NCBI RefSeq assembly: GCF_029714285.1 | Contig: NZ_CP121663.1 | Coordinates: 1,116,001-1,180,000, forward strand | Origin: Rhizobium sp. CB3090 | GTDB taxonomy: Bacteria > Pseudomonadota > Alphaproteobacteria > Rhizobiales > Rhizobiaceae | DNA length: 64,000 bases | Direction of reading: 5' to 3' | Shown: piece by piece, positions 41,308 through 61,313 of the stretch | Layout: every line of letters starts with the position of its first letter | Position numbering within the stretch: position 1 is the first letter of the stretch | The notes under the pieces: generated by a model | What the model was told of the DNA's origin: nothing | Databases searched by the model: none | Seen by the model: the letters and a program-made list of their open reading frames with translations, nothing else | Program-made: the position numbers and the translations under genes

Positions 41308-41488
41308 GACCACCTTCGACGCCTTACGCCATTCGATTCAAGTCTTCGACTCAGGTAAGGAACGCTTTCAAACATGATAATGTTCGCCTGAATGTGGCGT
41401 GAACGCGTCGTTTCGATTTAATTCATCGAAATCTCGAAGTGGTCATGATGATATTCCTGTCGCAAACTTCGCGGGTTGCCCACAGATC

Positions 41489-42478
41489 TCAGAACCTCTG
41501 CGGGGCAGCCGGCTTGTTTCCGACGATGGCGTCGACACGGGCCAACACCTCAAGCGTCAGCTTGTCTTTGTGTGCCAGCGCCGCCAGATTGTCTTCTAGC
41601 TGGCTCATGCGCGATGCGCCGAGAATGACCGTCGATACGTTGCGGTTCGAAAGGCACCAGAGCAGCGCAAGATGGGTGATCGAAATGCCGATCTCTTCCG
41701 CGAGATTCGCCAATTCCACCACCTGAGCAAGCCGGGAGCGACCGGCTTCGCTCGCCCACCTCTCCTTCAGCCATTCATAACCGGGCAGGTTCATACGGCT
41801 GTCGTTGGGCACGCCCTTGTTGTACTTGCCGGTCAGAACGCCCGATGCAAGCGGCGACCAAATCGTGGTGCCCAGACCCATCAGCTCGTAAAGCGGCAGG
41901 TAGTCGCCTTCTACCTTCTGGCGTTCGAAAATATTGTATTGCGGCTGCTCCATCGTCGGAGGCGTGATGCGCAGGTCGCGTGCCACGGCATAAGCTTCAG
42001 TCAATTGCTGGGCCGACCATTCCGACGTGCCCCAATAGAGGATTTTGCCTTGGGTCACGAGGTCGTGCATGGCACGAACCGTTTCCTCGATCGGAGTGTC
42101 GATGTCGGGCCGGTGGCAGAAATAGAGATCGAGATAATCGACCTGCAGCCGCTTCAATGCAGCGTGAGCGGCGTCGGTGACATGCTTGCGCGATAGACCC
42201 CTTTGTGTCGGCTTCTCACCACCCCAGAACACCTTGCTGGAAACGATGAAGCTGTCGCGGCTCCAACCGAGGGTTTTCAGGGCTTCACCCATAACGACTT
42301 CGGACTTGCCGCTCTCATAACCCTCGGCATTGTCAAAGAAATTGATGCCGCTGTCATAGGCTCGCGCCATCAGGCTGACTGCATCGCTGCCCTCGACCTG
42401 CCTGCCGAAGGTAACCCATGATCCGAACGAGAACTCGCTGACCTGCAGGCCAGATTTTCCAAGACGACGATATTCCAT
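41489..42478 (-). CDS. Aldo/keto reductase (voltage-gated K+ channel beta-subunit type)
   Basis: 329-residue NADPH-dependent aldo/keto reductase of the YghZ/KvBeta-like branch. Family features: MEYRRLGKSGLQVSEFSFGS at the N-terminus, FDNAEGYESGKSE (catalytic Asp and Tyr), the Lys in SSKVFWG, and the C-terminal cofactor loop GASRMSQLEDN. ATG 42478 with AGGA about 9 nt upstream is the start; an extension to 42514 is rejected. Soluble. It is divergent from the diaminopropionate operon across a 407-bp gap and is probably unrelated to it. Confidence 0.9.
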   Translation of the reverse strand: MEYRRLGKSGLQVSEFSFGSWVTFGRQVEGSDAVSLMARAYDSGINFFDNAEGYESGKSEVVMGEALKTLGWSRDSFIVSSKVFWGGEKPTQRGLSRKHVTDAAHAALKRLQVDYLDLYFCHRPDIDTPIEETVRAMHDLVTQGKILYWGTSEWSAQQLTEAYAVARDLRITPPTMEQPQYNIFERQKVEGDYLPLYELMGLGTTIWSPLASGVLTGKYNKGVPNDSRMNLPGYEWLKERWASEAGRSRLAQVVELANLAEEIGISITHLALLWCLSNRNVSTVILGASRMSQLEDNLAALAHKDKLTLEVLARVDAIVGNKPAAPQRF

Positions 42479-42885
42479 GGCGCAATTCCTAAGGGACAAA
42501 GGATGCGGCAACATAGGCCCATAGCGACTGCAAAGACAATCACCTTCCCGTCAGCTTCGTCGAGGACAGCGCCTGTCGGCATTGAAGCGCAACGACGGTG
42601 AGCGCGCTTGCCCGAAATCATCGACGGCGCCGCATATCCATGCAATATGGATGTTACGACCAACCCCGATATTGACTCATTTTCATACAACCGCACAAAC
42701 AATCCTTAGTTGTTATCATTTTGTTAGCCAGATTCTAACAGTCTGTTTTTAGAGACATTCTTAGTTCTATTCTAATCTTGATTATTTTAATCATCTTTTG
42801 TTGACTGCAGCTTAAAAGGGTGTAAGTTCCCGCTCATAAACGATCTGGCTCGCGTTTTCGCGAACCGTGATTCGGGGAGACATGA
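42479..42885. other. Intergenic promoter region of the diaminopropionate operon (407 bp)
   Basis: The first half is ordinary GC sequence. The part from about 42690 to 42800 is strikingly AT-rich with several ATTCTAA/TTCTTAG words that recall Irr-type boxes, and ends in the iron-box-like palindrome annotated separately. I see no gene here. Confidence 0.45.
42779..42793. promoter_or_regulatory. RirA-type iron-responsive operator (TGA-N9-TCA)
   Basis: TGATTATTTTAATCA is a perfect 6-3-6 palindrome and matches the rhizobial IRO pattern TGA-N9-TCA exactly. It lies 93 bp upstream of the first gene of the sbn-like operon, in the AT-rich part of the promoter region. RirA would repress under iron sufficiency. 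The match is visual; binding is unproven. Confidence 0.6.
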
Positions 42886-43326
42886 ATGAAGACGAGCATT
42901 GTTCAATACCAGCTTCTCGACCCCCGGAAGCTCATTCCGACCGAAGAAATCGATGGCGACAGAGTCGTCGAGCTCGAACAGGAGATCGTGCAATCCGGCC
43001 GGTGGACGCGACCGATCACCGTCCATCGGGGCGATTGGTTCGTCATGGACGGGCACCACAGGCTCACCATTGCGCAACGCCTTGACTTCAAAGTGCTCCC
43101 GGTTGTTCTTTTGGACTACGACACCGTTCGGGTGGAGGCATGGCGGCAAGGTGAAACAATCACGCCCGACATGATTTTCGAGATGGCGCGCAGCGGCCGA
43201 AAATTCCCCTGCAAGACGACGCGCCACATTTTCGAAAGCCCGCCTCCGGCTTGCGACATCCCCCTGGGAGAGCTTCGGCATCCCGACCCTGCCCCAAGCG
43301 CCAAACATTCAATGGCTCCTTCTTAA
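42886..43326 (+). CDS. ParB/sulfiredoxin-fold protein, SbnI/SerK-like free-serine kinase candidate
   Basis: 146 residues with the ParB N-terminal (sulfiredoxin) fold: LLDPRKLIPTEEIDGDRVVE, then a nucleotide-binding DGHHR at residues 55-59 and the preceding Glu20/Glu21, matching the residue types used by SerK and SbnI. SbnI phosphorylates free L-serine to O-phosphoserine, the substrate of SbnA. It is shorter than SbnI (about 250 residues), lacking the C-terminal part that binds heme in that protein. It is first in an operon with sbnB-, sbnH- and sbnA-like genes, which strongly supports the role. Plasmid-partition function is unlikely since it lacks the ParB HTH domain. Confidence 0.75.
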   Translation: MKTSIVQYQLLDPRKLIPTEEIDGDRVVELEQEIVQSGRWTRPITVHRGDWFVMDGHHRLTIAQRLDFKVLPVVLLDYDTVRVEAWRQGETITPDMIFEMARSGRKFPCKTTRHIFESPPPACDIPLGELRHPDPAPSAKHSMAPS

Positions 43327-43455
43327 GGGGAGAGCGCCAAACAGCCCAACGCGGATCCTTCCGCCGCGATAATGGACGAGCGAAATCGACGCGCTCGCTC
43401 AACGGGCACCCTTTTGCTCCTCACATCACATCGGCAACATCGAAAGGCATCGACG

Positions 43456-44451
43456 ATGACCAAGACGTTCATGCATACGCCTGCCATCCATATCCTCACG
43501 CGTTCTGATTTATCGGATATCGAACTGCCACCGGCAGAGGTCATTCGGCTCGTCGAAGATGCCTATTTGTCCTATGCTGAGGGACAATCGCGTTGCCCGA
43601 CCAAGCTTATGATGCCGCTGCCGAATGAACAGCGGGACGCGGTCTCCTATTCTATGCTGGGATATGACGGTGCGCTCGAACAAGTCGGGTTCAAGACCTC
43701 CTATCGCCAAGGCAGCGAAAGCGCTGAAAAATACTACACCACGATCAGCCTCTATGACGATACGACCGGACTTCCCTTCGCCTTCATGGATTGCCATCGT
43801 GTCGGCGGTTCGCGCACGCCGGCCACAACCGCCATCATTGCCAAACATTGCGCCAAGGAGGACGCACGATCGGCGCTGATGCTCGGGACAGGCGCGCAGG
43901 GTATCAATACGCTGCCCTATCTTCTGACCGCCCTGCCCCGCCTGCAAACCCTGCGCCTCTTTGGCACGCATCCCGACGGGCTTGCGGCGAGCCTTTCCAC
44001 ATTTGTCAAGTATTTTCCCGATCGTGAGATCGAGTTGGTGAAGGACGTCCCGGAGGCGGTCGCCGCATCCGACATCGTGGTGGCCGCCTCCGGCCGCGCC
44101 GCCCACCCCAAAATCCAGACCAAGTGGCTCAAGCCCGGCGGCCTGTTGATCTCGGTTGCCAGCAAAGGGGTCGAGGCGGGTGCATTGCACGATGCCGACT
44201 ATGCGATCGCCACGAACGAGGGTCAGTTGGGCGTGACCGGAAAGCGGCTCGCCGGCACGGAGGGCATCGCCAAGATCGATGCCGAGCTGCCTGATATCGT
44301 CGCTGGCCGCAAACCCGGGCGTAACAGTCAGGAAGACCGGGTATTCGCATTCAGCAGCGGCATGATCATTACCGATATCCCAGTTGCTCACGCATTGGCC
44401 ACCAGAGGGATTGCCGCCGGCCGCGGCAAGCGGGTCGAACTATGGAGCTAG
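43456..44451 (+). CDS. sbnB: SbnB-like 2,3-diaminopropionate biosynthesis dehydrogenase (ornithine cyclodeaminase/mu-crystallin family)
   Basis: 331-residue NAD-dependent enzyme. SbnB oxidises N-(1-amino-1-carboxy-2-ethyl)glutamate to L-2,3-diaminopropionate (Dap) and 2-oxoglutarate. Family features: LMMPLPN near the substrate site, FKTSYRQGS, the Rossmann motif LGTGAQG near residue 145, and DIVVAASGRAAHP. ATG 43456 with AAAGG upstream is chosen over an upstream in-frame extension. The frame overlaps the next gene by 10 nt. Homologues can act reductively like opine dehydrogenases, so the direction here is not certain. Confidence 0.85.
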   Translation: MTKTFMHTPAIHILTRSDLSDIELPPAEVIRLVEDAYLSYAEGQSRCPTKLMMPLPNEQRDAVSYSMLGYDGALEQVGFKTSYRQGSESAEKYYTTISLYDDTTGLPFAFMDCHRVGGSRTPATTAIIAKHCAKEDARSALMLGTGAQGINTLPYLLTALPRLQTLRLFGTHPDGLAASLSTFVKYFPDREIELVKDVPEAVAASDIVVAASGRAAHPKIQTKWLKPGGLLISVASKGVEAGALHDADYAIATNEGQLGVTGKRLAGTEGIAKIDAELPDIVAGRKPGRNSQEDRVFAFSSGMIITDIPVAHALATRGIAAGRGKRVELWS

Positions 44452-45776
44452 TGATCAATTCGATGCGCGCCCGGGAACAGGCCTGGGCGATTGCCGTCAG
44501 GCAAGACATTGAGCTGCTGAGCCAGATTCACCGCGCGACGGATGGCCCGTTTCATATCATCCATCCCGAGAGCTTTGCCGACAATCTGGCGGCCTTCCAA
44601 GACGTTCTGCGGGAAAGAAACGTGACGGGACACGTTTATTTCGGCAAGAAAGCCAACAAGGCGGGCGCATGGCTGCGTGAAGTCGCAAGACTACGCGGAT
44701 CGGTCGATGTCGCCAGTCTGCCCGAATTTGTTCATGCGCTCGCCAATGGAATCCTCGGCGAGGATATTGGCGTGACGGGCGCCGCCAAAAGCAACGATCT
44801 CCTTTGGCTGGCTTGCCGCCACGGTGCCACCGTTGCCATCGACGCCCTGGATGAACTGGAACGGGCAATCGATATCGCGGCGGAAACCGCTCCCTTGCGC
44901 ATCCTGCTGCGGGTGCTGCCGCCCACCGGGCAGAACAGCCGCTTCGGATTGAACTCAAATGACCTTCGCGTCGCGTTGGAGCGCTGCGCGAAGGCCAGAC
45001 GCCACCTGATCATGGATGGCTTTTCCTTCCATCTCGATGGTTATGCGGTAGAGCCGCGCGCCGAATTGGCGTCGATATTGATCGACCAATGCCTGGAAGC
45101 ACGCCGACAGGGCTTTCCGGCAACCGCCACTTCCATCGGCGGAGGCTTTGCCTGCGCCTATGTCGAAGAAGAGGAGTGGAAGGCTTTTAAGGAAACGATC
45201 GATCCGGCCGAGTTTCACGCCGGAAAGAGCTTCAACCACTTCTATCCCTATTACCAGGCTCCCACCGGCGCCGCCATGCTCGACGCGATCCTGCAAAGCC
45301 CGGACTCTGAAGGGACGCTTGCATCGAAGCTCATCGCTGCGGAGGTGCAATTGTATCTCGAGCCGGGACGGGCGCTTCTCGACGGTGCAGGGATCACGGT
45401 CTTTCCGGTGCAGAGTTTCAAGCGCAATGCGGAACACGGCATCGTAACCGTAGCCGGCCTCAGCATGAGCTTGTCGGAACAGTGGAAAAACAGCGAATTT
45501 CTGCCGACCCCTATTCTGGTGCAAAGAGGAGCGGCCCGTCCCCAGGAGCCCATTCGCGCCGCGATCGGCGGCTCCAGTTGCATGGAATACGACGTTCTGA
45601 CCTGGCGCAAGATCGCGTTTCCCGCGACCCCTCGGTATGGCGATCTGATCATTTATCCCAACACAGCCGGCTATCAGATGGACAAGAACGAGAGTGAGTT
45701 TCACCAACTCGCCTTGCCGCCGAAAATTGTTGTGACCCGGCAGGGCGAGCGTTTCACCTGGAGGATGGATCAATGA
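44442..45776 (+). CDS. SbnH-like type III PLP-dependent decarboxylase (Orn/DAP/Arg decarboxylase 2 family)
   Basis: 444 residues with the alanine-racemase-type barrel and its C-terminal beta domain. PLP Lys70 in FGKKANK; SRFGLNSNDL; GFSFHLDGY with the stacking His; GGG in SIGGGFACAY; EPGR; and the C-terminal substrate motif CMEYD in place of CESGD. These intact motifs indicate an active decarboxylase. SbnH in staphyloferrin B decarboxylates a Dap-containing intermediate; related rhizobial proteins are called Y4yA-like in my memory. It overlaps sbnB by 10 nt and sbnA by 4 nt. It could generate an ethylenediamine unit from a Dap derivative, which is inference. Confidence 0.82.
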   Translation: MELVINSMRAREQAWAIAVRQDIELLSQIHRATDGPFHIIHPESFADNLAAFQDVLRERNVTGHVYFGKKANKAGAWLREVARLRGSVDVASLPEFVHALANGILGEDIGVTGAAKSNDLLWLACRHGATVAIDALDELERAIDIAAETAPLRILLRVLPPTGQNSRFGLNSNDLRVALERCAKARRHLIMDGFSFHLDGYAVEPRAELASILIDQCLEARRQGFPATATSIGGGFACAYVEEEEWKAFKETIDPAEFHAGKSFNHFYPYYQAPTGAAMLDAILQSPDSEGTLASKLIAAEVQLYLEPGRALLDGAGITVFPVQSFKRNAEHGIVTVAGLSMSLSEQWKNSEFLPTPILVQRGAARPQEPIRAAIGGSSCMEYDVLTWRKIAFPATPRYGDLIIYPNTAGYQMDKNESEFHQLALPPKIVVTRQGERFTWRMDQ

Positions 45777-46840
45777 CCAGACACATTAGCCGGCCTGCTG
45801 AACGCGTGGTAACGACATGCTCCGAGCTGATTGGCGATACGCCCCTGCTGGAACTTGCGCGAACCGGATCCGGCAGCCGATTGCTGCTGAAGCTGGAACA
45901 GTTCAACCCCACCGGAACCTGCAAGGTTCGGATGGCACGGGAAATGATCCTAGCGGCTGAGCGGGACGGAAAGCTGAAGCCGGGCGGCCGCATCGTCGAG
46001 CCAACCTCGGGCAATACCGGAACGGGTCTGGCGCTTGCAGCAGTCGAGCGGGGCTATAAGTTTACCGCTGTCGTCGACAGCCACGCATCGCGCGACAAGC
46101 TTCGGGCGATGCGGGCCATGGGCGTCGATCTCGTTTTTGCCGAGAGCAAGGGGGACGGCCCCAGCACTGTCGAGCGGCGGCGCATCGCGGGAGAAATCGC
46201 CGAGGAAACCGGCGCATTCTGGCCGGATCAGCACTACAACCCCAACAACAACAATGGCTATGTCGGCTTGGCGGCCGAACTGCTCCGCGACCTCGGTACG
46301 GATATCGACTATCTCGTCGGCGCGGTCGGCACCGGCGGCACCCTATGCGGAACGGTAAGGGAACTACGCCGCCTCGGCTCGCAAGTCACGAGCATCGGTG
46401 TCGAACCGACGGGATCGATCATCTTCGGGGGCCGGCCTGGCAAATATTGGCAGACTGGCGCCGGCGCACCGGGCGGATTTACCGTCGGCCCCAACGTCGA
46501 TCATGCTCTGATCGATGAGGGATTGACGGTCGGAGACATCGAAGCATTCACGGCAGCCCGGGTCGTCGCTCGCCGAACGGGCATGCTTGTCGGCGGGACC
46601 GCGGGTGCCGGCATCCATGTGGCGCTCAAACGTCTGGCCCTCATCGAGCCGAACAGCACGATGGTGGTTCTGGTCTGCGACGCCGGCGAAAAATATCTCG
46701 ACACCATCTACGACGACGACTGGCTTCGGGAACGCCATCTGTTTGACGAGACGGCACATCGGCGACTGCATAGGCTTTTCGATGCATACCGTGAATCGAT
46801 ATATCTCGCCTCTCGAACTGCGGCAGCGGTGGGAGCATAA
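45773..46840 (+). CDS. sbnA: SbnA-like 2,3-diaminopropionate biosynthesis PLP enzyme (cysteine synthase family)
   Basis: 355-residue beta-replacement enzyme. In staphyloferrin B biosynthesis SbnA condenses O-phosphoserine with L-glutamate. The PLP Lys is Lys51 (NPTGTCKVRMA, where O-acetylserine sulfhydrylases have NPTGSVKDR), the phosphate-binding loop is GTGGTLCGT, and TSGNTGTG is the substrate loop. The long C-terminus (LDTIYDDDWLRERHLF) is a hallmark of SbnA-like proteins. It overlaps the decarboxylase gene by 4 nt. Cytoplasmic. With the SbnI- and SbnB-like genes it forms a complete serine-to-Dap set. Confidence 0.88.
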   Translation: MTRHISRPAERVVTTCSELIGDTPLLELARTGSGSRLLLKLEQFNPTGTCKVRMAREMILAAERDGKLKPGGRIVEPTSGNTGTGLALAAVERGYKFTAVVDSHASRDKLRAMRAMGVDLVFAESKGDGPSTVERRRIAGEIAEETGAFWPDQHYNPNNNNGYVGLAAELLRDLGTDIDYLVGAVGTGGTLCGTVRELRRLGSQVTSIGVEPTGSIIFGGRPGKYWQTGAGAPGGFTVGPNVDHALIDEGLTVGDIEAFTAARVVARRTGMLVGGTAGAGIHVALKRLALIEPNSTMVVLVCDAGEKYLDTIYDDDWLRERHLFDETAHRRLHRLFDAYRESIYLASRTAAAVGA

Positions 46841-46844
46841 CGAC

Positions 46845-48257
46845 GTGGCCACAATGCAATTTCGAAACTATCGGGACATCGTCACGCTCGCTGCCCCCAT
46901 TGCCGGCATTCAGTTCGCTCAGGTCGCCCTTACCAGCACTGACCTCCTGATGATGGGCTTCATCAGCGTTCAGGCCGTTGCTGCGGGCGGCCTTGCGATC
47001 CTGCTCTACAACCAACTGCGTACAATGTGCGTCGGCATGGTGACGGGCGTCGGCAATATGATTGCCGCCTCCGTGGGACGAGGAGAAAAGAGAACCGGAA
47101 CCTCATCCATCGACACCACAACGCATGACGAAGTTCGCGATCTGCTGCGGGCATCGATGATGCTGGCAACGATCGTTGCGATTGTCGCGGGCATCATCCT
47201 CGTCGCTCTCAGCTATTGCCTGGTCTTTCTCGGGCAGAGCGGCGCGGTCGTCGAGCTTGCGAAACCAATCATGCTGACGCTCGCACCGGGCCTGCTGCCC
47301 ATGCTGTGGCTCAATGTTTTGCGTCAGTTTGCGGTGGGAATGCGCCGCGCCGGCTCCCTCCTGTGGGTTACGATCCTCTCGATCGCCGTCAACGCTCTGC
47401 TCGATGCCGCTTTCATTTACGGATGGCTTGGCTTGCCGAAGCTCGGCCTGGCGGGCATCGGTCTGGCAACCACGCTTGTCCAGATATGGACCTTTTTCGT
47501 TTATCTGCGGACTGTCTGGCGGGATGAAAAACTGAACGCCCTTCTCGCACTGGACGGATGGCGGGCTCAGCCCGCGACGATAAGAAAAATCGCCAGGATG
47601 GGAACGCCGATCGCTTTGACCTATGGTTCCGAAGCGGCAATTACCTCCATCGCGACCGTTTTCATGGGTACCTTCGGTCCGGTCGCTCTCGCCGCTTCCA
47701 ACATCGTCAATCAGCTCGCCTATATCGTCTATCAGGCCAATATCGGACTATCTCAGGGATCATCGATATTGGTGAGCCGCACGGCCGGAAAGGGCCAGGC
47801 CGGTGAAATCGGTGCGATCGCAAGGCGCACCTTCACGATCAGCTTCTCCCTCATGACGGCTGTTGGCCTTCTCTACGTCCTGCTTCCGCAGGCAGTGCTG
47901 CGCCCCTTCCTGGGTGACGAGGCCGATCCGACCGTGCTTTCCGCGGCGACCACGCTGCTCTGGTTCGCCATAGCGCATCAATTCTTCAAGGGGTCGCAAA
48001 ACATCTGCATCGGACTGCTGCGCGGGCTTGGAAACACGAAGGCCGGGCTGACAAATACGCTGATCGGCTATTGGCTGATCGGCATCCCCGCTATGGCGGT
48101 CTGCGGATATTGGATCGGCTGGGGCAGCTATGGCATCTGGTTTGGCCTTTGCCTCGGATTCGGAGCCACCAGCTTCTTGCTGTGGTGGCGTTTCGTTACC
48201 GACCTCAGAACGGCATCGGCTTCGCTGCAAGACGCTGAATATCAAGGTGCCAGTTAG
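46845..48257 (+). CDS. MATE-family efflux transporter, candidate metallophore exporter
   Basis: 470-residue inner-membrane antiporter with about 12 hydrophobic helices. MATE features: LAAPIAGIQFAQVALTSTD at the start, YNQLRTMCVGMVTGVGNM, IVNQLAYIVYQANIGLSQGS in the second half. The start is set at GTG 46845, 9 nt after GGGAG (46831-46835) and 4 nt after the sbnA stop; ATG 46854 is the alternative. It is the fifth gene of the operon. MATE transporters use Na+ or H+ gradients to expel small polar compounds; secretion of the operon product is inferred from position. Confidence 0.85.
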   Translation: MATMQFRNYRDIVTLAAPIAGIQFAQVALTSTDLLMMGFISVQAVAAGGLAILLYNQLRTMCVGMVTGVGNMIAASVGRGEKRTGTSSIDTTTHDEVRDLLRASMMLATIVAIVAGIILVALSYCLVFLGQSGAVVELAKPIMLTLAPGLLPMLWLNVLRQFAVGMRRAGSLLWVTILSIAVNALLDAAFIYGWLGLPKLGLAGIGLATTLVQIWTFFVYLRTVWRDEKLNALLALDGWRAQPATIRKIARMGTPIALTYGSEAAITSIATVFMGTFGPVALAASNIVNQLAYIVYQANIGLSQGSSILVSRTAGKGQAGEIGAIARRTFTISFSLMTAVGLLYVLLPQAVLRPFLGDEADPTVLSAATTLLWFAIAHQFFKGSQNICIGLLRGLGNTKAGLTNTLIGYWLIGIPAMAVCGYWIGWGSYGIWFGLCLGFGATSFLLWWRFVTDLRTASASLQDAEYQGAS

Positions 48258-48260
48258 CGA

Positions 48261-48279
48261 GCCCGACGCGGGCAATTTT
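48261..48279 (+). terminator. Short terminator after MATE gene
   Basis: GCCCG (48261-48265) pairs with CGGGC (48269-48273) and is followed by AATTTT, 4 nt after the stop codon. It plausibly ends the biosynthesis-export operon ahead of the importer operon. Confidence 0.55.
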
Positions 48280-48289
48280 CCCGCATACC

Positions 48290-48326
48290 GCGATAAAATA
48301 TGATTGTAATCATCATGTTTTATCGC
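48290..48326. promoter_or_regulatory. 37-bp palindrome with embedded TGA-N9-TCA box upstream of importer operon
   Basis: Arms GCGATAAAATATGAT (48290-48304) and ATCATGTTTTATCGC (48312-48326) match at 14 of 15 positions around a 7-nt centre. Within it ATGATTGTAATCAT is itself a perfect palindrome, and TGATTGTAATCATCA (48301-48315) fits the RirA TGA-N9-TCA pattern. It lies about 130-165 bp upstream of the binding-protein start. It is most likely a metal-responsive operator; as RNA it would also fold into a 15-bp hairpin. Confidence 0.6.
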
Positions 48327-48454
48327 TAAGCAGAGTAATATAGTCAAGTTTTACGGCCAGACCGTCGAGACGCCGCTTCTTGCAAGCGGCTGGGAGACGG
48401 CGTCTGCCAACGAAACGTCATGTTGTAACAAATACTGAACTGGAGGATATCCCC

Positions 48455-49423
48455 ATGAGGCGGCGCGCGTTGGGCGTATTTAATATTGCAAGCATTATTG
48501 TCATGTTGACCTCGGGTGGCGCTTTTGCCGAGGACAAAAAGACTCTTTCGATCGTGGATGATCGCGGTGTGACCGTGCAGGCCCCGGTCAACCCGAAGCG
48601 GATCGCCTCGGTTTCCTACCTTGCGGTCGATGTCGCGCTTGCCCTCGGCATCAAGCCTGTCGCGACCACCTACATGACGGCCGGACGCGAACCGGACTTC
48701 CTTCTCGGCCTGACGAAGGACATGAAGCAGATCGGACAACGGGCGAAGCCCAATCTCGAATTGCTGTCGGAAGTTCGGCCCGACGTTATCATTGCCATGA
48801 AACGCTACACCGTCGGCAATGCCCCACAGTTCGAAAAGATCGCGCCCTATATCGCCTACAATATGGAGCTTCTGAGCCAAAGCTATCAGGAGGTCGCCGA
48901 CCTTTCGAAGCTGTTCGGAAATCCGAAGCGCGGCGAAGAATTGAACGCCGCTTTCAAGAAGGATCTCGAGGAGTTCGCCGCAAAGGCGCCGAAGAACACG
49001 CGCCCGCGTTTCCAGATCATGTGGGCGGGCGATACCCCCTTCTCCTTCCATACCGAAAACACGGCAGCATCGATCGTTGCAGCGCTCGGAGGCGACAATA
49101 TCGTTGGCCCGATGACGAAGGACGGCCGCTTCGGCGAACAGCTCAGCCTCGAAACGATGCTGGAAAAAGATCCGGAGGTGATCTTCGTCTATGACAGCGG
49201 CCCGGATCGTCCGCACGAGAATAATCCCATCTGGAAACAGCTCTCGGCCGTCAAGAACGGTCGCGTGCACTATGTCGGTGACGAATGGGTGGAGACCAAT
49301 GGTCCGATCGGCCGTGAGCTGGTGCTGCGTGAGGCCGCCCACTACCTCTACCCCGACACCTTCCCTGCCGTCGACGTCAAGGCGGAGGCGGCGAAGCTGA
49401 TCCCGACCGAGCTGCAAAATTGA
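48455..49423 (+). CDS. Iron-chelate ABC transporter substrate-binding protein (FecB/FepB type)
   Basis: 322-residue periplasmic binding protein of the helical-backbone class for ferric siderophores, heme or cobalamin. Signal peptide (RRRALGVFNIASIIVMLTSG, cleavage near AFA-ED). The PF01497-like core includes NPKRIASVSYLAVDVALALG, the two-lobe linker helix through QSYQEVADLSKLFGNP, and PEVIFVYDSGP near the C-terminus. The start ATG 48455 has GGAGG (48442-48446) 8 nt upstream. It lies 197 bp after the MATE gene with its own candidate promoter. The next gene start overlaps its stop (TGATG). Presumed ligand: the ferric form of the Dap-derived chelator, by context. Confidence 0.9.
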   Translation: MRRRALGVFNIASIIVMLTSGGAFAEDKKTLSIVDDRGVTVQAPVNPKRIASVSYLAVDVALALGIKPVATTYMTAGREPDFLLGLTKDMKQIGQRAKPNLELLSEVRPDVIIAMKRYTVGNAPQFEKIAPYIAYNMELLSQSYQEVADLSKLFGNPKRGEELNAAFKKDLEEFAAKAPKNTRPRFQIMWAGDTPFSFHTENTAASIVAALGGDNIVGPMTKDGRFGEQLSLETMLEKDPEVIFVYDSGPDRPHENNPIWKQLSAVKNGRVHYVGDEWVETNGPIGRELVLREAAHYLYPDTFPAVDVKAEAAKLIPTELQN

Positions 49424-50451
49424 TGAGGATCGCGGCTGCTCAGCCGCCACGCAATGATCTTCGATCGCTGGTGATGACAATCACGATCGTGGCCGTTGCC
49501 GCGATCGTGATTGTCGGCGGGCTTCTGATCGGCGCAAAGCCGCTTCAGCCGCGAGCTCTTTGGACGGTTCTGTTCGAGCCCGACGGGAAGATCGATTCCA
49601 TTGTCGTATGGACATTGCGGCTGCCGCGCAGCCTCGCGGCTTACATCGGAGGCGCCGGTCTCAGCGTCTCCGGTTATCTGCTGCAGACACTGACCCGCAA
49701 TCCGCTCGCCGGGCCGGGCCTGACCGGCGTGATATCCGGAGCGGTGACACCGATCGTTTTCTGTTTCGTTTTCATGCCGTGGCTTTCGTCCGCATATTAT
49801 CCGTTGGTCGGGCTGGCGGGCGGTTTGGCGGCTGCGCTGTTGACCTTCTGGGTCTCACGCGGAGGCAGAGGACGCCCCTTGCATCTGGCCCTTGGCGGCG
49901 TCAGCATTTCTTTGTTCCTCAGCGCAGTCACGACCTACATCCTGTTGTTGAGCGGACCGCAGGTGCCGTCATTGCTTTTCTGGCTGGCCGGCGGCTTTCA
50001 GGGACGTTCGTGGACGCAGCTCGCATACATGACACCTTGGGTTTTTCTTGGCACCGCCGGCGCATTGGCATGCCAGCGCGTGATCGGACTTCTCGCCCTT
50101 AGCGAGCAGGCGGCGGCCGGGATGGGATTGCAGCTCTCGTTTTGGAAGCCATTGCTGCTTCTTCTCGCAGTTTTGCCGGTGGCGGGCGTGACGCCCGTGG
50201 CAGGTCCTGTCGCCTTCGTCGGGTTGGCAGCGCCGCATATCGCCCGGCTTTTGGGGCCGAAAAGTCCAGGATGGACGATTGCGCTCACCGCGGCCATCGG
50301 CGGCCTGATGGTGGTTGTCGCCGACGTCATTGCGCGAAGCGTTGCCGCTCCCCAAGAACTTCCGGTTGGCATCGTCACGGCGCTGATAGGAGGGCCGTTG
50401 TTCATCTACCTCGTGCAAAGCCGCAACTTCTCCTTCAAGGGAGAAGCGTGA
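49423..50451 (+). CDS. Iron-chelate ABC transporter permease (FecCD family), first subunit
   Basis: 342-residue inner-membrane permease with about ten helices. FecCD signatures: LRLPRSLAAYIGGAGLSVSG near residue 68, LTRNPLAGPGLTGVISGA, LWLAGG-like FWLAGGFQGRSW, and GPVAFVGLAAPHIARLLG near the C-terminus. It starts at ATG 49423 overlapping the binding-protein stop; a TTG one codon upstream is possible. It pairs with the next permease to form a heterodimeric pore, as in FecC/FecD or FhuB halves. Confidence 0.92.
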   Translation: MRIAAAQPPRNDLRSLVMTITIVAVAAIVIVGGLLIGAKPLQPRALWTVLFEPDGKIDSIVVWTLRLPRSLAAYIGGAGLSVSGYLLQTLTRNPLAGPGLTGVISGAVTPIVFCFVFMPWLSSAYYPLVGLAGGLAAALLTFWVSRGGRGRPLHLALGGVSISLFLSAVTTYILLLSGPQVPSLLFWLAGGFQGRSWTQLAYMTPWVFLGTAGALACQRVIGLLALSEQAAAGMGLQLSFWKPLLLLLAVLPVAGVTPVAGPVAFVGLAAPHIARLLGPKSPGWTIALTAAIGGLMVVVADVIARSVAAPQELPVGIVTALIGGPLFIYLVQSRNFSFKGEA

Positions 50452-50453
50452 GC

Positions 50454-51488
50454 ATGGCCACTTCTCTGTCGCTCCGAAACACCGGCAGCACCGGATTCCT
50501 GCTCGCCTTTATCTTCATCGCGCTCCTCTCGTTCATGCTGGCGGTGTTTGTGGGCGTGGCCGATATTCCCCCATCGGATGTCATCGCTGTGTTCACGGGA
50601 CACGGTTCGCAGCAGGCGCAATCGGTCATCATGGATATCCGCCTGCCCCGAATTGTGACGGGTATACTGGCTGGCATTCATCTCGCTGTTGCCGGCCTTA
50701 TTCTTCAAAGCGTTACCCGCAACCCGCTGGCCGATCCTTCGATCATGGGTGTCTCGCAGGGGGCAACGCTCGCAGTCACCGTCTTCCTGCTGTTCACAGT
50801 CTATATTCACTATACCGGATCGACGACCGTCGCCGAACTTCCCCTTGAGTGGCTGCCGGCCGTCGGCACGGTGGGCGGTCTTCTGGCAGGCGGCATCATC
50901 TATATGCTGGCCTTTCGTCTCGACCTTGGACCGCTTCGCATCACGCTTTGCGGCATTGCGGTGGGAGCCGTGCTACAGGCGCTAGCCATCGGATTGATCG
51001 CAGGCTGGGGCTCTGCGCGGATTGAAGTGCTACTGGAATGGCTTTCCGGCAGTCTCTATGCGCGCAGTTGGGAACATGCCGCCTTCCTGTTTCCGTATAC
51101 GATTGCCGGTCTCGCTGTCTTGCCCATGATCCGAAGGCCGCTGGAACTGCTGCGCTTCGATGTTTCCACGGCCCGGTCCTTCGGGCTTTCCTACCGGCGG
51201 CAATTTTCGCTTGCGCTGCTTTTGTCCTGCGCGCTTGCGGCAAGCGCGGTTGGCACGGTCGGACCCATCGTCTTCATCGGGCTTATCGTCCCTCACCTTG
51301 CCCGCTTTCTGGCCGGCAAGCGCACCGCCCTCGTTCTGCCTCTGACGATCGCCCTCGGCGCCGTGACCGTAACCCTCGGAGATCTTGTCGGCCGGCTCAT
51401 CGGGCAGGCCGACGAAATCCCGATCGGTATCGTCACGGCGATCTGCGGCGTTCCCGTGCTCATCGCGCTTCTGCGCAAAACCCCATGA
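50454..51488 (+). CDS. Iron-chelate ABC transporter permease (FecCD family), second subunit
   Basis: 344-residue permease with the same signatures as its partner: DIRLPRIVTGILAGIHLAVA, TRNPLADPSIMGVSQGA, EWLSGSLYARSW and GPIVFIGLIVPHLARFLAG. ATG 50454 with GGGAG about 10 nt upstream is preferred; a GTG at 50448 overlapping the previous stop is the alternative. The first 100 codons of the longer frame overlap the upstream permease and are rejected. It is translationally coupled to both neighbours. Confidence 0.92.
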   Translation: MATSLSLRNTGSTGFLLAFIFIALLSFMLAVFVGVADIPPSDVIAVFTGHGSQQAQSVIMDIRLPRIVTGILAGIHLAVAGLILQSVTRNPLADPSIMGVSQGATLAVTVFLLFTVYIHYTGSTTVAELPLEWLPAVGTVGGLLAGGIIYMLAFRLDLGPLRITLCGIAVGAVLQALAIGLIAGWGSARIEVLLEWLSGSLYARSWEHAAFLFPYTIAGLAVLPMIRRPLELLRFDVSTARSFGLSYRRQFSLALLLSCALAASAVGTVGPIVFIGLIVPHLARFLAGKRTALVLPLTIALGAVTVTLGDLVGRLIGQADEIPIGIVTAICGVPVLIALLRKTP

Positions 51489-51495
51489 GGATGCC

Positions 51496-52284
51496 ATGCT
51501 GCTGTCCTGCTCCCGCCTGTCCGTCGCCTATGGTGCTCGAAGAGCACTGAAGGCTCTCAATCTCTCCTTCAGGCCAGGCGAGATCCGTGCGCTGATCGGA
51601 CCCAACGGCTCCGGAAAGAGCACGGCCCTCCAAGCCCTTTCCGGTCTGATCAAACCGGCGGGAGGCAACACCGAGATCGACGGCAGACCGATCACCTCCA
51701 TGTCGCGCCGGCAGTTGGCAAGGCACCTTGCATTTCTGCCGCAGCAGCCGGCCGCACCTGACGAGATGACCGTGGCGCAACTGGTGAGGCAAGGTCGCTT
51801 CGCACATGTCGGCCTGTTCCGGAACTACGGCCCGCGGGACGAAGATGCCATTCGCTGGGCCCTGGAAAGCACCGGCCTTCATAGTTTCGCCGACAGGAGC
51901 CTGCGGGAATTGTCCGGCGGCGAGCGCCAGCGGGCCTGGATCTCGGCGGCGATTGCACAGGAAGCACGAATCCTGCTTCTCGATGAGCCGACGTCATTTC
52001 TCGACATCGGCTACCAGGTGGAAGTCCTCGATCTTGTCTATCGGCTCAGCCGGGAAAAAGGCGTCACCATCATCATGGCGATCCACGACCTCAACCAGGC
52101 AATGTCCGTTTGCGATCAGATCTCATTGCTCGATAGGGGCAATCTGGTCTTTGACGGCGATCCAAAGGTACTGGCCGACACTGGGCTGATCGAAAAGGTC
52201 TTCCGGGTGAAAGGCCGTTTCGTGCCGATCACCTCCGATGCGCCCCCGCATTTCGATGTCGAGCTTGCGCATCGGTATCACTAG
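51496..52284 (+). CDS. Iron-chelate ABC transporter ATP-binding protein (FecE/FepC type)
   Basis: 262-residue ATPase. Walker A GPNGSGKST at residues 35-43, Q-loop LPQQPAAPDEMTV, signature LSGGERQRAW, Walker B ILLLDEPTSFLD, and switch His in IMAIHDLNQA. The start ATG 51496 follows GAGGATGCC. It completes the four-gene importer (binding protein, two permeases, ATPase). No TonB-dependent receptor gene is present in the window; one must exist elsewhere if the ligand crosses the outer membrane by active transport. Confidence 0.95.
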   Translation: MLLSCSRLSVAYGARRALKALNLSFRPGEIRALIGPNGSGKSTALQALSGLIKPAGGNTEIDGRPITSMSRRQLARHLAFLPQQPAAPDEMTVAQLVRQGRFAHVGLFRNYGPRDEDAIRWALESTGLHSFADRSLRELSGGERQRAWISAAIAQEARILLLDEPTSFLDIGYQVEVLDLVYRLSREKGVTIIMAIHDLNQAMSVCDQISLLDRGNLVFDGDPKVLADTGLIEKVFRVKGRFVPITSDAPPHFDVELAHRYH

Positions 52285-52321
52285 GACAGGCGGAGTCACG
52301 GGGCTTTGGGAGGCTTTGGAA

Positions 52322-52579
52322 ATGTATCCGGAAGATCATGATTCGAACGCATCCTCCAAGGGTTTCCTGGCTGAACTTCTGATTCGCATGCCGATGCTTC
52401 GGTGGCTTTTGGGCAACCTGCCCGTTCGCACCGCCCCCGAAAAGCAATCCGTTTCCGGCTATGGCGCCGATGAGCCTCTCTGCAAGGAATTGGCGGATGC
52501 CGCGATAGGCGATCTACGCCGGAAGGCTCTGATTTCCTCGGTGCTCCATTCCGCTTCTTCCCGTTGGCAGCGCGGCTGA
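52322..52579 (+). CDS. Small hypothetical protein at end of importer operon
   Basis: 85 residues (MYPEDHDSNASSKGFLAELL at the start). GGGAGG lies 8 nt upstream of ATG 52322, a strong ribosome site that fixes the start. There is a short amphipathic segment (LLIRMPMLRWLLGNLPV) that might associate with a membrane. It begins 38 nt after the ATPase gene and is probably in the same transcript. No family is recognised and no function can be proposed. Confidence 0.65.
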   Translation: MYPEDHDSNASSKGFLAELLIRMPMLRWLLGNLPVRTAPEKQSVSGYGADEPLCKELADAAIGDLRRKALISSVLHSASSRWQRG

Positions 52580-52695
52580 CGGAGAACAATGACCTTACAT
52601 CTTCCAGGAGCGGGCTTTTCCGCCAACTGTTAATCGCAAGCAGCGTTCCTATATATAGCTGCAAATCGTCTTTCTGCCTAAGGACAGGAGAAACA

Positions 52696-53679
52696 ATGCT
52701 TGGTGCAGTTCCGCGTTTCACGCAGCTAGCAGTCATCGTCGCTCTCGCCGTTGCCACCACCCTTGCAAGCTTCGGCGATGCCGATGCACGGCGGGCCGGC
52801 GGCTTCGGTGGATTTGGCAGCCGTGGAACCAGAACCTTTGACTCTCCGGCGATAACGCGCACCGCTCCGACGCAGGCAGCTCCCATCGACCGGACCATGA
52901 CGCCGCGGCCGCAGACCGCAACGCAATCGCCGATCAATGCGCAGCCGCGTCCCAGCTTGTTCAACGGTTTCGGCCGGTCGATGCTCGGCGGATTGATCGC
53001 GGGCGGCCTTCTCGGCATGCTGCTCGGACACGGCTTCGGCGGCGGCTTTGGCTTCCTTGGCCTGCTGCTGCAGATTGGCCTGATCATTGCGGCCATCAGC
53101 CTCGCCATGCGGTTTTTCGCAAACCGGCAGCAAACCTCCTATTCCGCATCGGGATCGAACACGCCTTATCATATGAACGCGTCGCGGCCCTCCTCCTTCG
53201 CCATTCCGACGATCGGCGGCGGAGCTGCCAGCCCCACGCAGCAAAGAAAGGCGAATGACGAGATCGGGCTGTCGCAGGCCGACCTCGACCGTTTCGAACA
53301 GCTTCTGACGGAAGTCCAGTCGGCTTATGGCGCTGAGGATTACAACAGCCTGCGCCGTCTTACCACGCCGGAGGCAATGTCCTATCTTGCCGAGGAGCTT
53401 GGAGAAAACGCGACCAAGGGCGTTCGCAACAGCGTCACCAACGTTCATCTGCTGCAGGGCGATATCTCGGAAGCCTGGCGCGAGGGCAATACCGACTATG
53501 CCACCCTCGCCATGCGTTATTCGAGCATCGATGCGCTACTCGACCGTGCGACGGGCCGGGTTGTCGACGGCGACGATCGCAATGCGTCCGAGACCACCGA
53601 GATCTGGACCTTCGTGCGCAAGCCCGGTTCGGACTGGAAGCTTTCCGCTATCCAGGGAACGGAACTCCATAATGCTTGA
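52696..53679 (+). CDS. Tim44-like domain protein, exported/membrane anchored
   Basis: 327 residues. A signal-type helix (LAVIVALAVATTLASF) leads to a Gly/Arg/Thr/Pro-rich linker (GGFGGFGSRG), a long glycine-rich hydrophobic segment of two helices (about 95-145, ending GLIIAAISLAMRFFAN), and a C-terminal Tim44-like/TimA domain (about 190-327: ADLDRFEQLLTEVQSAYGA, WTFVRKPGSDWKLSAIQGTE). This architecture is common in alphaproteobacterial Tim44-like proteins associated with the inner membrane. ATG 52696 has AGGACAGGAG upstream; the longer frame from 52564 is rejected. It is convergent with the giant repeat gene. Function uncertain. Confidence 0.85.
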   Translation: MLGAVPRFTQLAVIVALAVATTLASFGDADARRAGGFGGFGSRGTRTFDSPAITRTAPTQAAPIDRTMTPRPQTATQSPINAQPRPSLFNGFGRSMLGGLIAGGLLGMLLGHGFGGGFGFLGLLLQIGLIIAAISLAMRFFANRQQTSYSASGSNTPYHMNASRPSSFAIPTIGGGAASPTQQRKANDEIGLSQADLDRFEQLLTEVQSAYGAEDYNSLRRLTTPEAMSYLAEELGENATKGVRNSVTNVHLLQGDISEAWREGNTDYATLAMRYSSIDALLDRATGRVVDGDDRNASETTEIWTFVRKPGSDWKLSAIQGTELHNA

Positions 53680-53748: not shown

Positions 53749-56700
53749 TCAGACTGTCAGGTAAGACAAAGCGTCTGCCGCGGCATCGGACGTCGCCAAC
53801 GCGTCAACCTGCGCCGATGTCATGGCGGCGATCTGAGCCGGAGTAAAGGCCTCAGCCTGGGAGGTCGACAGGGCGGCGAGCGCAGTGGTGCTCAATCCGG
53901 AGATTGCGCTCGTATTCAGGGAGACGATCTGCTCGGCGGAAAACGCCGATAGATCATCCGCGCTCAGCGCGGCGGCCTGAACCACGTTGAAGGAGCTGAC
54001 CTGCGATGCCGACAACGCTCCAACTTGCGCAGTACTCATCGCCGCCACCTGGACGTAGCTCAGCGAAGCAACCTGGCTTGTCGTCAAACCTGCGATCTCG
54101 TCGGAGGATAGGGACGCGAAAGCCGTCGTGGACAATCCCCTGATTGCCGTCGAGCTAATCGCCGCAAGTTCGTCAGTCGAGAACGTTTCCAGATCCGCAG
54201 TAGTCAACCCGGCAAGCCCGGCGGAACTCATAGCGGCTATCTGGCTGGTGGAGAGCGCTTCGATCTGCTCCTCGCTCAGAACGTTGACCTGATCGCTCGT
54301 CAGTCCGGAGATGCCTCCAGTGCTCAAGGCTGCAATCTCATCGGTAGAAAGCGTTGCGATGAAGTCCGTGGACAGCCCCTTTATCGAGCCTGAGCTAATC
54401 GCGGCAAGTTCTTCCGGCGAGAAGGTGTCCAGCATTTCCGCAGTCAGGCCCTTGAGCGCGTCCGAACTCAACGCAGCTATCTGATTGGTCGAGAATGTTT
54501 CGACCTGCTCAATGGTCAAAGCGCCGGCCTGCGCACTGCCGAGGCCCGCGATACCTGCCGTACCAAGCGCCGCGACCTGCTCGACCGAAAGCGAGGCGAT
54601 ATCGGCCGTACTCATCGCCGCAATCTGCTTGGAGGTCAGAGCGCCGACCTGTGCCGTCGTCAAAGCGTCTACCTGATCCGTGCTGAGGACGGCGATCTGG
54701 TTGGTGGTCAGCCCCGATATCGCCGCCGTACCCAGAGCCTCGACCTGGGTTGCCGTCAGCGAGGCGACCGTTGCCGTTGACAAGCCCGAGATCGCACTCG
54801 AACTGATCGCGCCTATCTCTGCGGTCGTGAAGGTATCCAAATCGGCCGTGGTAAGAGCAGCCATCTGTTTCGAGCTAAGCGCGCTGATCTGCACACTAGT
54901 CAGTGCCTCGACCTGATCGGTGCTGAGCACGGCGATCTGATCTGTGGTCAGCCCTGCGATGCCTGCCGTGCCGAGTGCCGCGACCTGCTCCACGGAAAGG
55001 GAAGCGATGTCGCCAGTGCTCATTGCCGCAATCTGCTTCGACGTCAGCGCACCAACCTGAGCCGTCGTCAGGGCATCCACCTGACTGGTGCTGAGCACTG
55101 CGATCTGGTCACTGGTCAGGCCCGATATAGTCGCCGTGCCCAAGGCTGCGATCTGGGTCGGCGTCAGCGACGCAATCGTTGCCGTCGACAAGCCCGAGGC
55201 CGCGCTGGAACCGATCGCCGCCATCTCCGCGGCGGTGAAGGTATCCAGATCCTCCGCACTGAGGGCGGCAATCTGTTTCGAGCTGAGCGCACCAATCTGC
55301 GTACTGGTCAGTGCCTCGACCTGATACGTGTTCAGTGCCACGATCTGAGCGGTGCTTAGGCCGGCGATGCCTACCGTGCCAAGTGCAGCAACCTGATCCA
55401 GCGAAAGCGAAGCGATGTCGATAGTGCTCATCGCCGCAATCTGTTTCGAGGAGAGAGCATGGACCTGCGCAGTCGTCAGGCCATCAACCTGATCCGTGCT
55501 GAGGACAGCGATCTGGTCGGTGGTCAGCCCCGATATGCCCACCGTGCCCAGCGCTGCGACCTGGGTCGGCGTCAGCGAGGCGATCGTTGCCGTCGACAAG
55601 CCCGAGACTGCACTCGAACCAATGGCGGCCATCTCGGCGGTCGTGAAGGTATCCAGATCGTCCGTACCGAGGACGGCAATCTGTTTCGAGCTGAGCGCGC
55701 CGATCTGCGTACTGGTCAGTGCCTCGACCTGATCGGTGCTGAGCACCGCGATCTGATCGGTGCTCAGACCCTCGATGCCTGCCGTGCCAAGTGCCGCGAC
55801 CTGCTCTACCGAAAGCGAAGCGATGTCGGCCGTACTCATGGCCGCAATCTGTTTCGATGTGAGAGCACCGACCTGCGCCGTGGTCAGGGCATCCACCTGA
55901 TCCGTGCTGAGGACGACGATCTGATCCGTGGTCAGACCCGATATGCCCGCCGTGCCCAAGGCCGCGACCTGGGTCGGCGTCAGCGAGGCGATCGTTGCCG
56001 TCGACAAGCCGGAGACCGAGATCGAGCCGATCGCGGCCATCTCCGCGGCGGTAAAGGTATCCAGATCCTCCGCACTGAGGGCGGCAATCTGCTTCGAGCT
56101 GAGCGCACCGATCTGCGTACTGGTCAGGGCCTCGACCTGATCGGTGCTGAGCGCTGCGATCTGATCGGTGGTCAGACCCGCCATACCCGCCGTGCTCAAA
56201 GAGGCTATCTGACTCGCCGAAAGCGAGGCGATCTCGCCGGTGCTCAGGGCCGCAATCTGTCGCGAACCGAGCGCACCGACCTGAGAATTGGTCAAAGCGT
56301 CGACCTGATCGCTGCTGAAGGCGGCGATCTGCTTGGTGCTCAATCCGCTAATGCCTACCGTACTCAGGGCTGCGATCTGAGCCGTCGTCAAGGCGGCGAT
56401 CGCATCCGTCGACAATCCGGGGATGGCGGCCGAACCGATCGCCGCAATCTCCTTGGTCGAGAACGTTGCGATGTCGTCAGCTCCCAGCACCGTAAGCTGC
56501 GCGGAACTGAGGGCGCTGATCTGCGCACTGGTCAAAGCCTCCATCTGAGCAGTGCTCAGGGCCGCGATCTGCTTGGTGCTTAGCGTATTGATGTCTAACG
56601 TACTCAATGCTGCGACCTGGGCGGTCGTCAGGGAGGCGAGCGTGTCCGTCGACAAGCCGGCGATGGCATTCGAACTGATCGCTGCAATGTCCTTGGTCGA

Positions 56701-61017: not shown

Positions 61018-61313
61018 GCCCGCAAATCCTAAACGTGAGGTCCAACGCCTCAACAACCGACAGGCGGCCTGTCTGCCCAAGCTCTGAACGAGCATCGGCC
61101 ATGTGAGTCCGCCATCCTGTAAAGCTGAGTACGAAAAGGGGCTTGCCTGAACCTGAAGTAGGTCGGCTTTCGTCGATCTCTCCATCAGATGCCGTCCGGA
61201 TGATTTTCCGTCGTAAAACCAAATGGATCGAGGCGTTCGTCGATGCCGGACCAGCCTTTGGTCATTCTGAAGCGGGTAAAAGGCCGCAACGGCTTGTAAA
61301 ACCCGGTCTGCCG

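Follow-up and report, generated by a model that had tools for sequence, protein, structure and literature searches.

The locus described here occupies positions 42886-52284 of a 64-kb stretch of DNA from Rhizobium sp. CB3090 (G000:C2:1116001-1180000), the whole of which is called the window below. The genome measures 6.49 Mb and consists of four contigs. Gene calls were taken from a list of open reading frames (ORFs) and from family-model scans, and several start positions were revised. All genes of the locus lie on the forward strand in the order I-B-H-A-MATE, followed by SBP-FecCD-FecCD-FecE, where the letters denote the likeness to sbnI, sbnB, sbnH and sbnA and SBP stands for a substrate-binding protein. 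The sbn-like genes, the MATE exporter and the importer named in a preliminary description of this DNA were all found, and the gene set is confirmed as real. A FecE-type ATPase was added, which makes the importer complete.

The I gene (42886-43326) encodes a short SerK/SbnI-type free-serine kinase of 146 amino acids. The family scan gave no Pfam match for it, and it reaches 47 bits with the SerK model (cut-off 380) and 19.5 bits with the SbnI model (cut-off 350). It keeps the residues E20, D55-G-H-H-R59 and K110-T-T-R-H114, and its alignment reaches both ends of a solved free serine kinase. The B gene (43456-44451) encodes an NAD(P)-dependent enzyme of the ornithine cyclodeaminase/SbnB family, as judged by family scan, start analysis and predicted fold. 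Its ORF opens at 43372, with 43456 as the probable start, and its product scores 108 bits with OCD_Mu_crystall and 93 bits with the SbnB model (cut-off 327). The H gene (44442-45776) encodes an amino-acid decarboxylase of the Y4yA type that depends on pyridoxal 5′-phosphate (PLP), according to family scan, alignment and tree. The PLP-binding domain Orn_Arg_deC_N is matched at 55 bits and the LysA model at 87 bits (cut-off 298); plasmid relatives of H are annotated as ‘alanine racemase’ or ‘Y4yA family’. The A gene (45773-46840), assigned by the same three means, encodes an SbnA/cysteine-synthase-like PLP enzyme with 225 bits for PALP and 231 bits for the SbnA model (cut-off 350). Its Lys51 is invariant in 27 aligned rows, and the enzyme would join O-phosphoserine to an amino acid. 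Because the SbnA, SbnB and SbnI scores fall far under the curated cut-offs, A, B and I are related to the staphyloferrin B enzymes but are not their equivalogs. The earlier reading of these genes as a full route from serine to 2,3-diaminopropionate is not supported. Free diaminopropionate need not be formed, and in the tree A is separate from the eleven rows used as outgroup, whatever their own function may be.

The B/H and H/A gene pairs overlap, and 13 bases separate A from the start of the gene for the MATE-family exporter (46854-48257; family scan, start analysis). A gap of 197 bases with an operator of its own lies ahead of the importer genes. These encode an SBP of the Fe-siderophore-type periplasmic kind (Peripla_BP_2, 48455-49423), two FecCD-family permeases (49420-50451 and 50454-51488) and the FecE-type ATPase (51496-52284). 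All were assigned by family scan, with start analysis for all except the first permease. The best-scoring models for the SBP and the permeases are those for Fe-siderophore, Fe-dicitrate and haem. As the preliminary description stated, no synthetase gene is encoded at 42886-52284. The sbnA-I locus of staphyloferrin B has SbnA-, SbnB- and SbnI-type families in common with the window locus, and B folds like SbnB. It differs in its NRPS-independent siderophore (NIS) synthetases, which are absent from the CB3090 genome.

Iron-responsive operators and RirA

The RirA operator, or iron-responsive operator (IRO) box, follows the rule TGA-N9-TCA (PMC6386902), and the tested fhuA box reads TGACTAAAATAATCAT (PMC10510648). 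Both transcription units of the window locus, that of the kinase and that of the importer, are preceded by such a box. The predicted box TGATTATTTTAATCA lies at 42779-42793 on the forward strand, 107 bases before the start of I, and has 6 of 7 symmetric pairs, which was equalled by 3 of 500 shuffles. The other box, TGATTGTAATCATCA (48301-48315), begins 154 bases before the SBP gene and is held in a predicted operator palindrome, AAAATATGATTGTAATCATCATGTTTT, at 48295-48321 on the forward strand, which was called from its recurrence before SBP genes. CB3090 encodes RirA, one of its four Rrf2 proteins, which scores 294 bits with the RirA model (cut-off 193). The two marks of the RirA regulon, promoter sites of the TGA-N9-TCA form and a genome that encodes RirA, are thus both present. 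As read from the sequence, the boxes and the RirA gene fit a siderophore role.

Related loci carry similar sites. Symmetric boxes (at least 4 of 7 pairs) were found before I in 6 of 10 loci; there was none in L017, L020 and L026 and only a weak one in L040. Before the SBP gene a TGA-N9-TCA box occurs in 10 of 14 loci (the window and nine others), the four without it being L017, L020, L024 and L040. Of three further loci, L075 and L077 are boxed before both genes and L078 before SBP only. Upstream of B, a position that in 8 of 14 loci lies inside the operon and hence is a control, a box was found in 1 of 14, and it was weak. Single sites are modest against shuffles (3 to 42 of 500, with an approximate block-swap scheme for dinucleotide shuffling), yet their position and sequence recur. 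The longer palindrome around the SBP site, AAAACATGATTG-N5-ATCATGTTTT, recurs in Rhizobium, Roseibium, Xaviernesmea and Aureimonas and is among the best two of the promoter in seven of nine IRO-boxed relatives (L013, L014, L018, L019, L021, L022, L056). A search of the CB3090 genome with up to three mismatches found it in two places, and the reversed control in none. One place is the SBP promoter of the window and the other lies ahead of a TonB-receptor gene (L101, C1:2200500-2209500), at a distance of 182 nt from its most upstream start. That promoter has two IRO boxes, one of them inside the long palindrome, and the receptor reads haem-like by eye. A three-mismatch match to an iron control element (ICE) box of Irr was seen before I in the window, with like sites in L013 and L014, and was not relied on. 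No match to a Zur consensus was found in window positions 41001-53500.

Distribution of the locus and of synthetases

A scan of genome contigs with A gave 62 loci, and searches of plasmids gave 93 records with H and 74 with A (E <= 1e-40 for A). Rhizobium leucaenae (A 95%) and R. freirei (94%) came out of the genome scan as the nearest named species. The neighbourhoods of the examined loci fall into three architectures, with A and H common to all. Type 1 is that of the window. Since B-H-A-MATE is contiguous in 34 of 87 examined loci with an A match, this order is not due to chance; the preliminary description had proposed a search for the longer order sbnI-B-H-A-MATE-FecBCD. The 34 loci include the window itself (L001), L002 and L013 appear to be one genome, and three of the 34 are 4.3-kb pieces with their flanks out of view. 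A kinase match is present in 14 of them and an SBP more than 50% identical in 13. The hosts belong to the alpha-, beta- and gammaproteobacteria and to Nocardia (Hyphomicrobiales, Undibacterium, Trinickia, Erwinia, Nocardia and one Rhodococcus plasmid). Type 2 has the order I-H-A-opine dehydrogenase-IucA/C-major facilitator superfamily (MFS) transporter, mostly followed by SBP and a TonB receptor, in 13 examined loci of Sinorhizobium, Rhizobium, Bradyrhizobium, Nitratireductor, A. vitis and, rearranged, Serratia. The exceptions are L091, without SBP and TonB receptor, and L092, without a TonB match. Type 3, H-B-(MATE)-HisC-like-A, was found in 15 loci of Streptomyces, Micromonosporaceae and Amycolatopsis.

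Maximum-likelihood trees unite the three types in one clade that excludes the outgroup rows, and types 2 and 3 each form a single group. The clade has a support of 100/99 in the A tree (50 rows, among them the long-branched L060, a stray from the outgroup) and of 100/100 in the H tree (50 rows against two outgroup rows). The tree program warned of long branches, L054, L060, L081 and L088 among them. Two Mycobacterium plasmid A rows fall with the outgroup in the A tree, so these plasmids keep only H and MATE of the clade, and one also B: L079 (9262-14753) carries B-H-MATE next to copper-handling genes and L080 (8105-14768) carries H-MATE, with only distant A-like genes. The tumour-inducing (Ti) plasmids L076 (3287-12420) and L026 (7221-11068) carry I-B-H-A without MATE or FecBCDE homologues, in L076 beside genes for a phosphoenolpyruvate mutase, a cytidylyl/CDP-alcohol transferase and ABC importers, which may point to another use of the module.

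Among 60 genomes of the same genus, CB3090 included, H scores more than 900 bits in three and 210-233 bits in four, and the wider neighbourhoods of these four are of type 2. In the family, H was found at E <= 1e-40 in 11 of 297 genomes, three at more than 700 bits and eight, with neighbourhoods inspected for a minority, at 142-245 bits. The patchy spread and the plasmid locations suggest that the locus has moved by transfer.

The proposed scan for synthetases was made for the CB3090 genome and for relatives. A whole-genome profile search found no IucA/IucC domain (PF04183) in CB3090. The domain is absent from 23 of 24 whole genomes carrying an A of the clade, the sole exception being Aureimonas pseudogalii (L025), in which H is in two pieces. 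It is likewise absent from all 20 genomes with contiguous B-H-A-MATE, CB3090 among them; the 20 leave out L056 (A-MATE-Fec, no B or H in the stretch), L025, L026 (no MATE) and L054 (divergent). In the stretches examined, the type 1 loci have no match to two type 2 NIS proteins. They have no homologue of the opine dehydrogenase or the NIS synthetase, both of which are present in the type 2 operon. The condensation domain (PF00668) of non-ribosomal peptide synthetases (NRPSs) is absent from 4 of 15 Gram-negative genomes, a count that does not include CB3090, and from 3 of the 13 with a contiguous locus (L016, L017 and L021), L025 and L056 being left out of the 13. Completeness figures cover G000, G013 and G018 among the scanned genomes. 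With NIS synthetases in none of 20 genomes and condensation domains missing in 3 of 13, the pathway cannot in general depend on a NIS synthetase or an NRPS; no search was aimed at other classes of ligase.

Proposed pathway and alternative explanations

The kind of chelator that such a gene set would produce is already known. Ethylenediaminedisuccinate (EDDS) has been tied to genes via Zur sites, and its route is said to differ from NRPS and NIS (PMC4993170, PMC6103462). antiSMASH 7 includes a rule for aminopolycarboxylic acid metallophores (PMC10320115), and PMC12420677 cites from MIBiG a S. scabiei cluster (BGC0002568) for ethylenediaminesuccinic acid hydroxyarginine (EDHA). antiSMASH calls of this class have been published for a Nocardia with a MATE gene and, at 44%, for Burkholderia semiarida (PMC12981146), so that a Gram-negative case has already been flagged. 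The window locus would be a rhizobial variant of this kind. In the open-licence PMC papers that were searched, no rhizobial case, no RirA control and no rhizobactin link was found for such chelators. We take the joint presence of SbnA-like, ornithine cyclodeaminase/SbnB-like and PLP decarboxylase genes to be the feature set of EDDS/EDHA-kind clusters; family scans and trees place the same three together in the window locus.

In its proposed synthetase-free route the window locus would resemble the EDDS (aes) and EDHA systems; for EDDS such a route is described in PMC4993170. It differs from EDDS proper in that the Zur control of the latter is unmatched in the window, which has IRO boxes instead. 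All 15 type 3 loci keep H, B and A (tblastn identities of 39-45%, 36-39% and 52-55%, respectively) and differ in a HisC-like aminotransferase, an ATP-grasp gene in L051 and L052 and a MATE match in 11 of 15, whereas the serine kinase, FecBCDE and the IRO boxes are features of the window. The type 3 loci may be EDDS or EDHA clusters, the kind characterised in A. japonicum (aes) and S. scabiei (EDHA). Several type 3 loci (L051, 6398-15983, and others) also have ABC exporters, one in L051 with a His-rich start. The 15 Nocardia loci have the same B-H-A-MATE order (A 67-71%, B 68-79% and H 57-62% identical); they differ in the lack of a kinase and of an SBP more than 50% identical in the stretch examined. 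The cluster reported by antiSMASH for N. mangyaensis NH1 is likely the same locus. In 20 genomes of the Nocardia genus of G113 an H homologue is always present, in 19 at 47-50% and in the 20th a partial one at 52%, apparently marking a second widespread cluster besides the one at 60%. A search for IdeR boxes in the Nocardia loci gave 9-11 of 19 positions, no better than shuffles, and was discarded; for the loci examined this disagrees with the DmdR1 (iron) control reported for a Nocardia cluster (PMC10920908).

We propose that the locus probably produces a small iron siderophore with no synthetase involved, an aminopolycarboxylate of the EDDS kind with an ethylenediamine bridge, and that it also serves to export this compound and take it up again. 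The gene content and order, the conserved motifs of I, A and H, the lack of NIS synthetases, the IRO boxes and the RirA gene were observed, whereas the substrates, the direction of the B step, the product and the transport roles given below are inferred. The kinase I would phosphorylate serine to O-phosphoserine. A would then exchange the phosphate for the alpha-amine of an amino acid X, most likely aspartate or glutamate, to give N-(2-amino-2-carboxyethyl)-X. H would decarboxylate the serine-derived end, which has a free alpha-amine, leaving N-(2-aminoethyl)-X with its ethylenediamine unit. B, with its imine-reductase-like fold, may then couple the free amine reductively with a 2-oxo acid Y, to give a di-N-carboxyalkyl ethylenediamine; with aspartate as X and oxaloacetate as Y this would be EDDS itself. 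The MATE protein would export the product, SBP-FecCD-FecE would re-import the iron complex, and RirA would shut the system off when iron is plentiful. The strongest hint that B acts reductively is a swap seen in type 2: an octopine/nopaline dehydrogenase (PF02317) stands there instead of B, and this family couples 2-oxo acids to amines by reduction. The idea of a chelator made without a synthetase, raised in the preliminary description, is in part supported by the synthetase counts, the IRO boxes and RirA; the antiSMASH 7 rule means that the kind of chelator is not undescribed.

Several observations weigh against this proposal. The predicted fold of B resembles an imine reductase and SbnB to the same degree and so does not tell one from the other, which leaves the reductive role unproved; SbnB works in the oxidative direction. 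Some condensation domain is present in 10 of the 13 Gram-negative genomes with a contiguous locus, and CB3090 has one unlinked NRPS stretch with two condensation domains and an adenylation domain (C2:590-595 kb, about 564 kb from the locus). Read by eye, the surrounding segment (L095, C2:580000-599000) also shows a ketosynthase-like start and a phosphopantetheinyl transferase-like ORF. No IRO box precedes the first gene B in L015, L016, L017, L023, L024 and L025, although L016 and L025 do have one before SBP, and Methylobacterium L020 has none. Fur/Zur-like boxes occur in 11 of 11 Streptomyces promoters (at least 14 of 19 positions), in 7 of 15 Nocardia promoters (at least 15 of 19), where IRO boxes were not searched for, and in 1 of 4 Micromonosporaceae/Amycolatopsis promoters (at least 15 of 19). 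That search used consensus strings and 60 single-base shuffles per promoter and did not tell FurA from Zur. Together with the zinc control of EDDS, these boxes mean that the metal may differ by host. Finally, there is no TonB receptor at the window locus. CB3090 has two TonB receptors over the cut-off, that of L101 being one of them, and only one of the two matches the L015 receptor at all, at 23%. The gene directly before B in Bradyrhizobium L015 and Undibacterium L017 encodes a TonB receptor that is 42-43% identical to that of type 2. Our guess is that porins may let through a complex of a few hundred daltons.

These points also bear on other explanations. The locus could make free L-2,3-diaminopropionate or ethylenediamine, from which an unlinked NRPS or other ligase builds the metallophore. 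The membership of A and B in the SbnA and SbnB families, the SbnB-like fold of B and the NRPS stretch, with like condensation-domain matches in G013, in G018 and in the L014 genome, would agree with this. We consider it improbable, however, since 3 of the 13 Gram-negative contiguous-locus genomes lack condensation domains as well as NIS synthetases (other ligase classes aside), exporter and importer genes sit within the locus, the A and B scores are far under the SbnA and SbnB cut-offs, and decarboxylation of diaminopropionate would destroy the building block. An equally unlikely case is that the same chemistry yields a chelator for zinc or another metal and that iron control is secondary. The operator is an IRO box in the window and nine further SBP promoters, a search of window 41001-53500 gave no Zur-like match, and models for Fe-siderophore, Fe-dicitrate and haem score best with the SBP and permeases; on the other side stand the Zur control of EDDS (PMC6103462, PMC4993170), the Fur/Zur-like boxes in Streptomyces and part of the Nocardia relatives, and in L022 a three-mismatch match before I to an alphaproteobacterial Zur consensus. 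That the product is a signal or antimicrobial diamine, with FecBCDE a chance neighbour, is very unlikely. The Ti-plasmid I-B-H-A genes do lack MATE and FecBCDE homologues, L026 lacks an IRO box as well, and none of the 15 Nocardia loci has an SBP more than 50% identical in the stretch examined, but such an SBP accompanies 13 of 34 B-H-A-MATE loci in differing orientations, and both transcription units of the window bear the same kind of operator.

The type 2 operon as a candidate for rhizobactin biosynthesis

The preliminary description linked the window locus to the chemistry of rhizobactin. Rhizobactin is described as ethylenediamine to which alanine, lysine and malic acid are coupled (PMC7676072). 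The window locus encodes nothing that would form the lysine-malate amide, and the link is not supported for it. As judged from the structure, rhizobactin needs an N-(1-carboxyethyl)-forming enzyme and a malyl-lysine ligase; the candidates for these, the opine dehydrogenase and the NIS synthetase, have no homologue in the type 1 loci and are present in type 2. The type 2 operon is therefore a better rhizobactin candidate than the window locus. On plasmid pSINME01 of S. meliloti AK83 (L087, 8190-19023) it encodes the kinase, the Y4yA decarboxylase, the SbnA-like enzyme, the opine dehydrogenase, IucA/C, MFS and SBP, with a TonB receptor. The same operon, mostly with a TonB receptor nearby, is found in L082-L084, L089, L090, L092 and L096-L099; S. 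chiapasense is among the hosts of the operon. The opine dehydrogenase occurs at 99.5% identity or more in plasmid records of S. meliloti (four) and S. medicae (three). The kinase, decarboxylase and SbnA-like core is shared with the window (A 44-49% and H 33-38% identical in 13 loci); the differences are the octopine-dehydrogenase-family enzyme in place of B, the added NIS synthetase and MFS in place of MATE. IRO boxes (at least 4 of 7 pairs) lie before I in 9 of 13 loci and before the TonB gene in 7 of 10 tested. The kinase and A would act with lysine as the nucleophile, H would provide the ethylene bridge, the opine dehydrogenase would form the alanine part (an N-carboxyethyl group) from pyruvate, and the single NIS synthetase, whose best model is FslA of rhizoferrin (285 bits, cut-off 1000), would form the malyl amide.

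In the open-licence PMC papers no gene assignment was found for the rhizobactin of strain DM4. Rhizobactin B of Pseudomonas has been linked instead to rhbAB homologues (PMC7676072), and PMC12815270 applies ‘rhizobactin’ to the rhizobactin 1021 cluster. In the type III secretion region of NGR234, y4yA is listed as an uncharacterised enzyme, y4xP as a cysteine synthase, y4xO as an oxidoreductase, y4xN as a siderophore biosynthesis protein and y4xM as an MFS transporter, and pNGR234b carries each of them a second time (PMC10970691). An operon copy inside a type III secretion region, like NGR234 y4yB-y4xM, was also seen on a Sinorhizobium symbiotic plasmid (L091, 8202-15235); no IRO box precedes its kinase, and the DGHHR motif reads DDYHR. 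Outside the locus, the window holds an ORF of 2539 amino acids (53749-61368, reverse strand) made up nearly entirely of degenerate ‘ALSTxQIAALST’-like repeats.

We lean towards the view that the kinase, the SbnA-like enzyme and Y4yA form an ethylenediamine module, which gives an EDDS-like chelator when combined with an ornithine cyclodeaminase-type enzyme and rhizobactin when combined with an opine dehydrogenase and a NIS synthetase. If this is true, the rhizobactin genes are those of the operon of the S. meliloti AK83 type, and NGR234 y4yB-yA-xP-xO-xN-xM would have a function. The rhizobactin genes become testable in a sequenced S. meliloti strain, and the Y4yA family, named by NCBI only after a locus, receives a concrete hypothesis. 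The proposal for the window locus, if true, would place an EDDS-like chelator under the rhizobial iron regulator, in contrast to the zinc control of EDDS in actinomycetes. A natural, biodegradable chelator like ethylenediaminetetraacetate (EDTA), made by three or four small enzymes in rhizobia, which are easy to handle, would also be of practical use.

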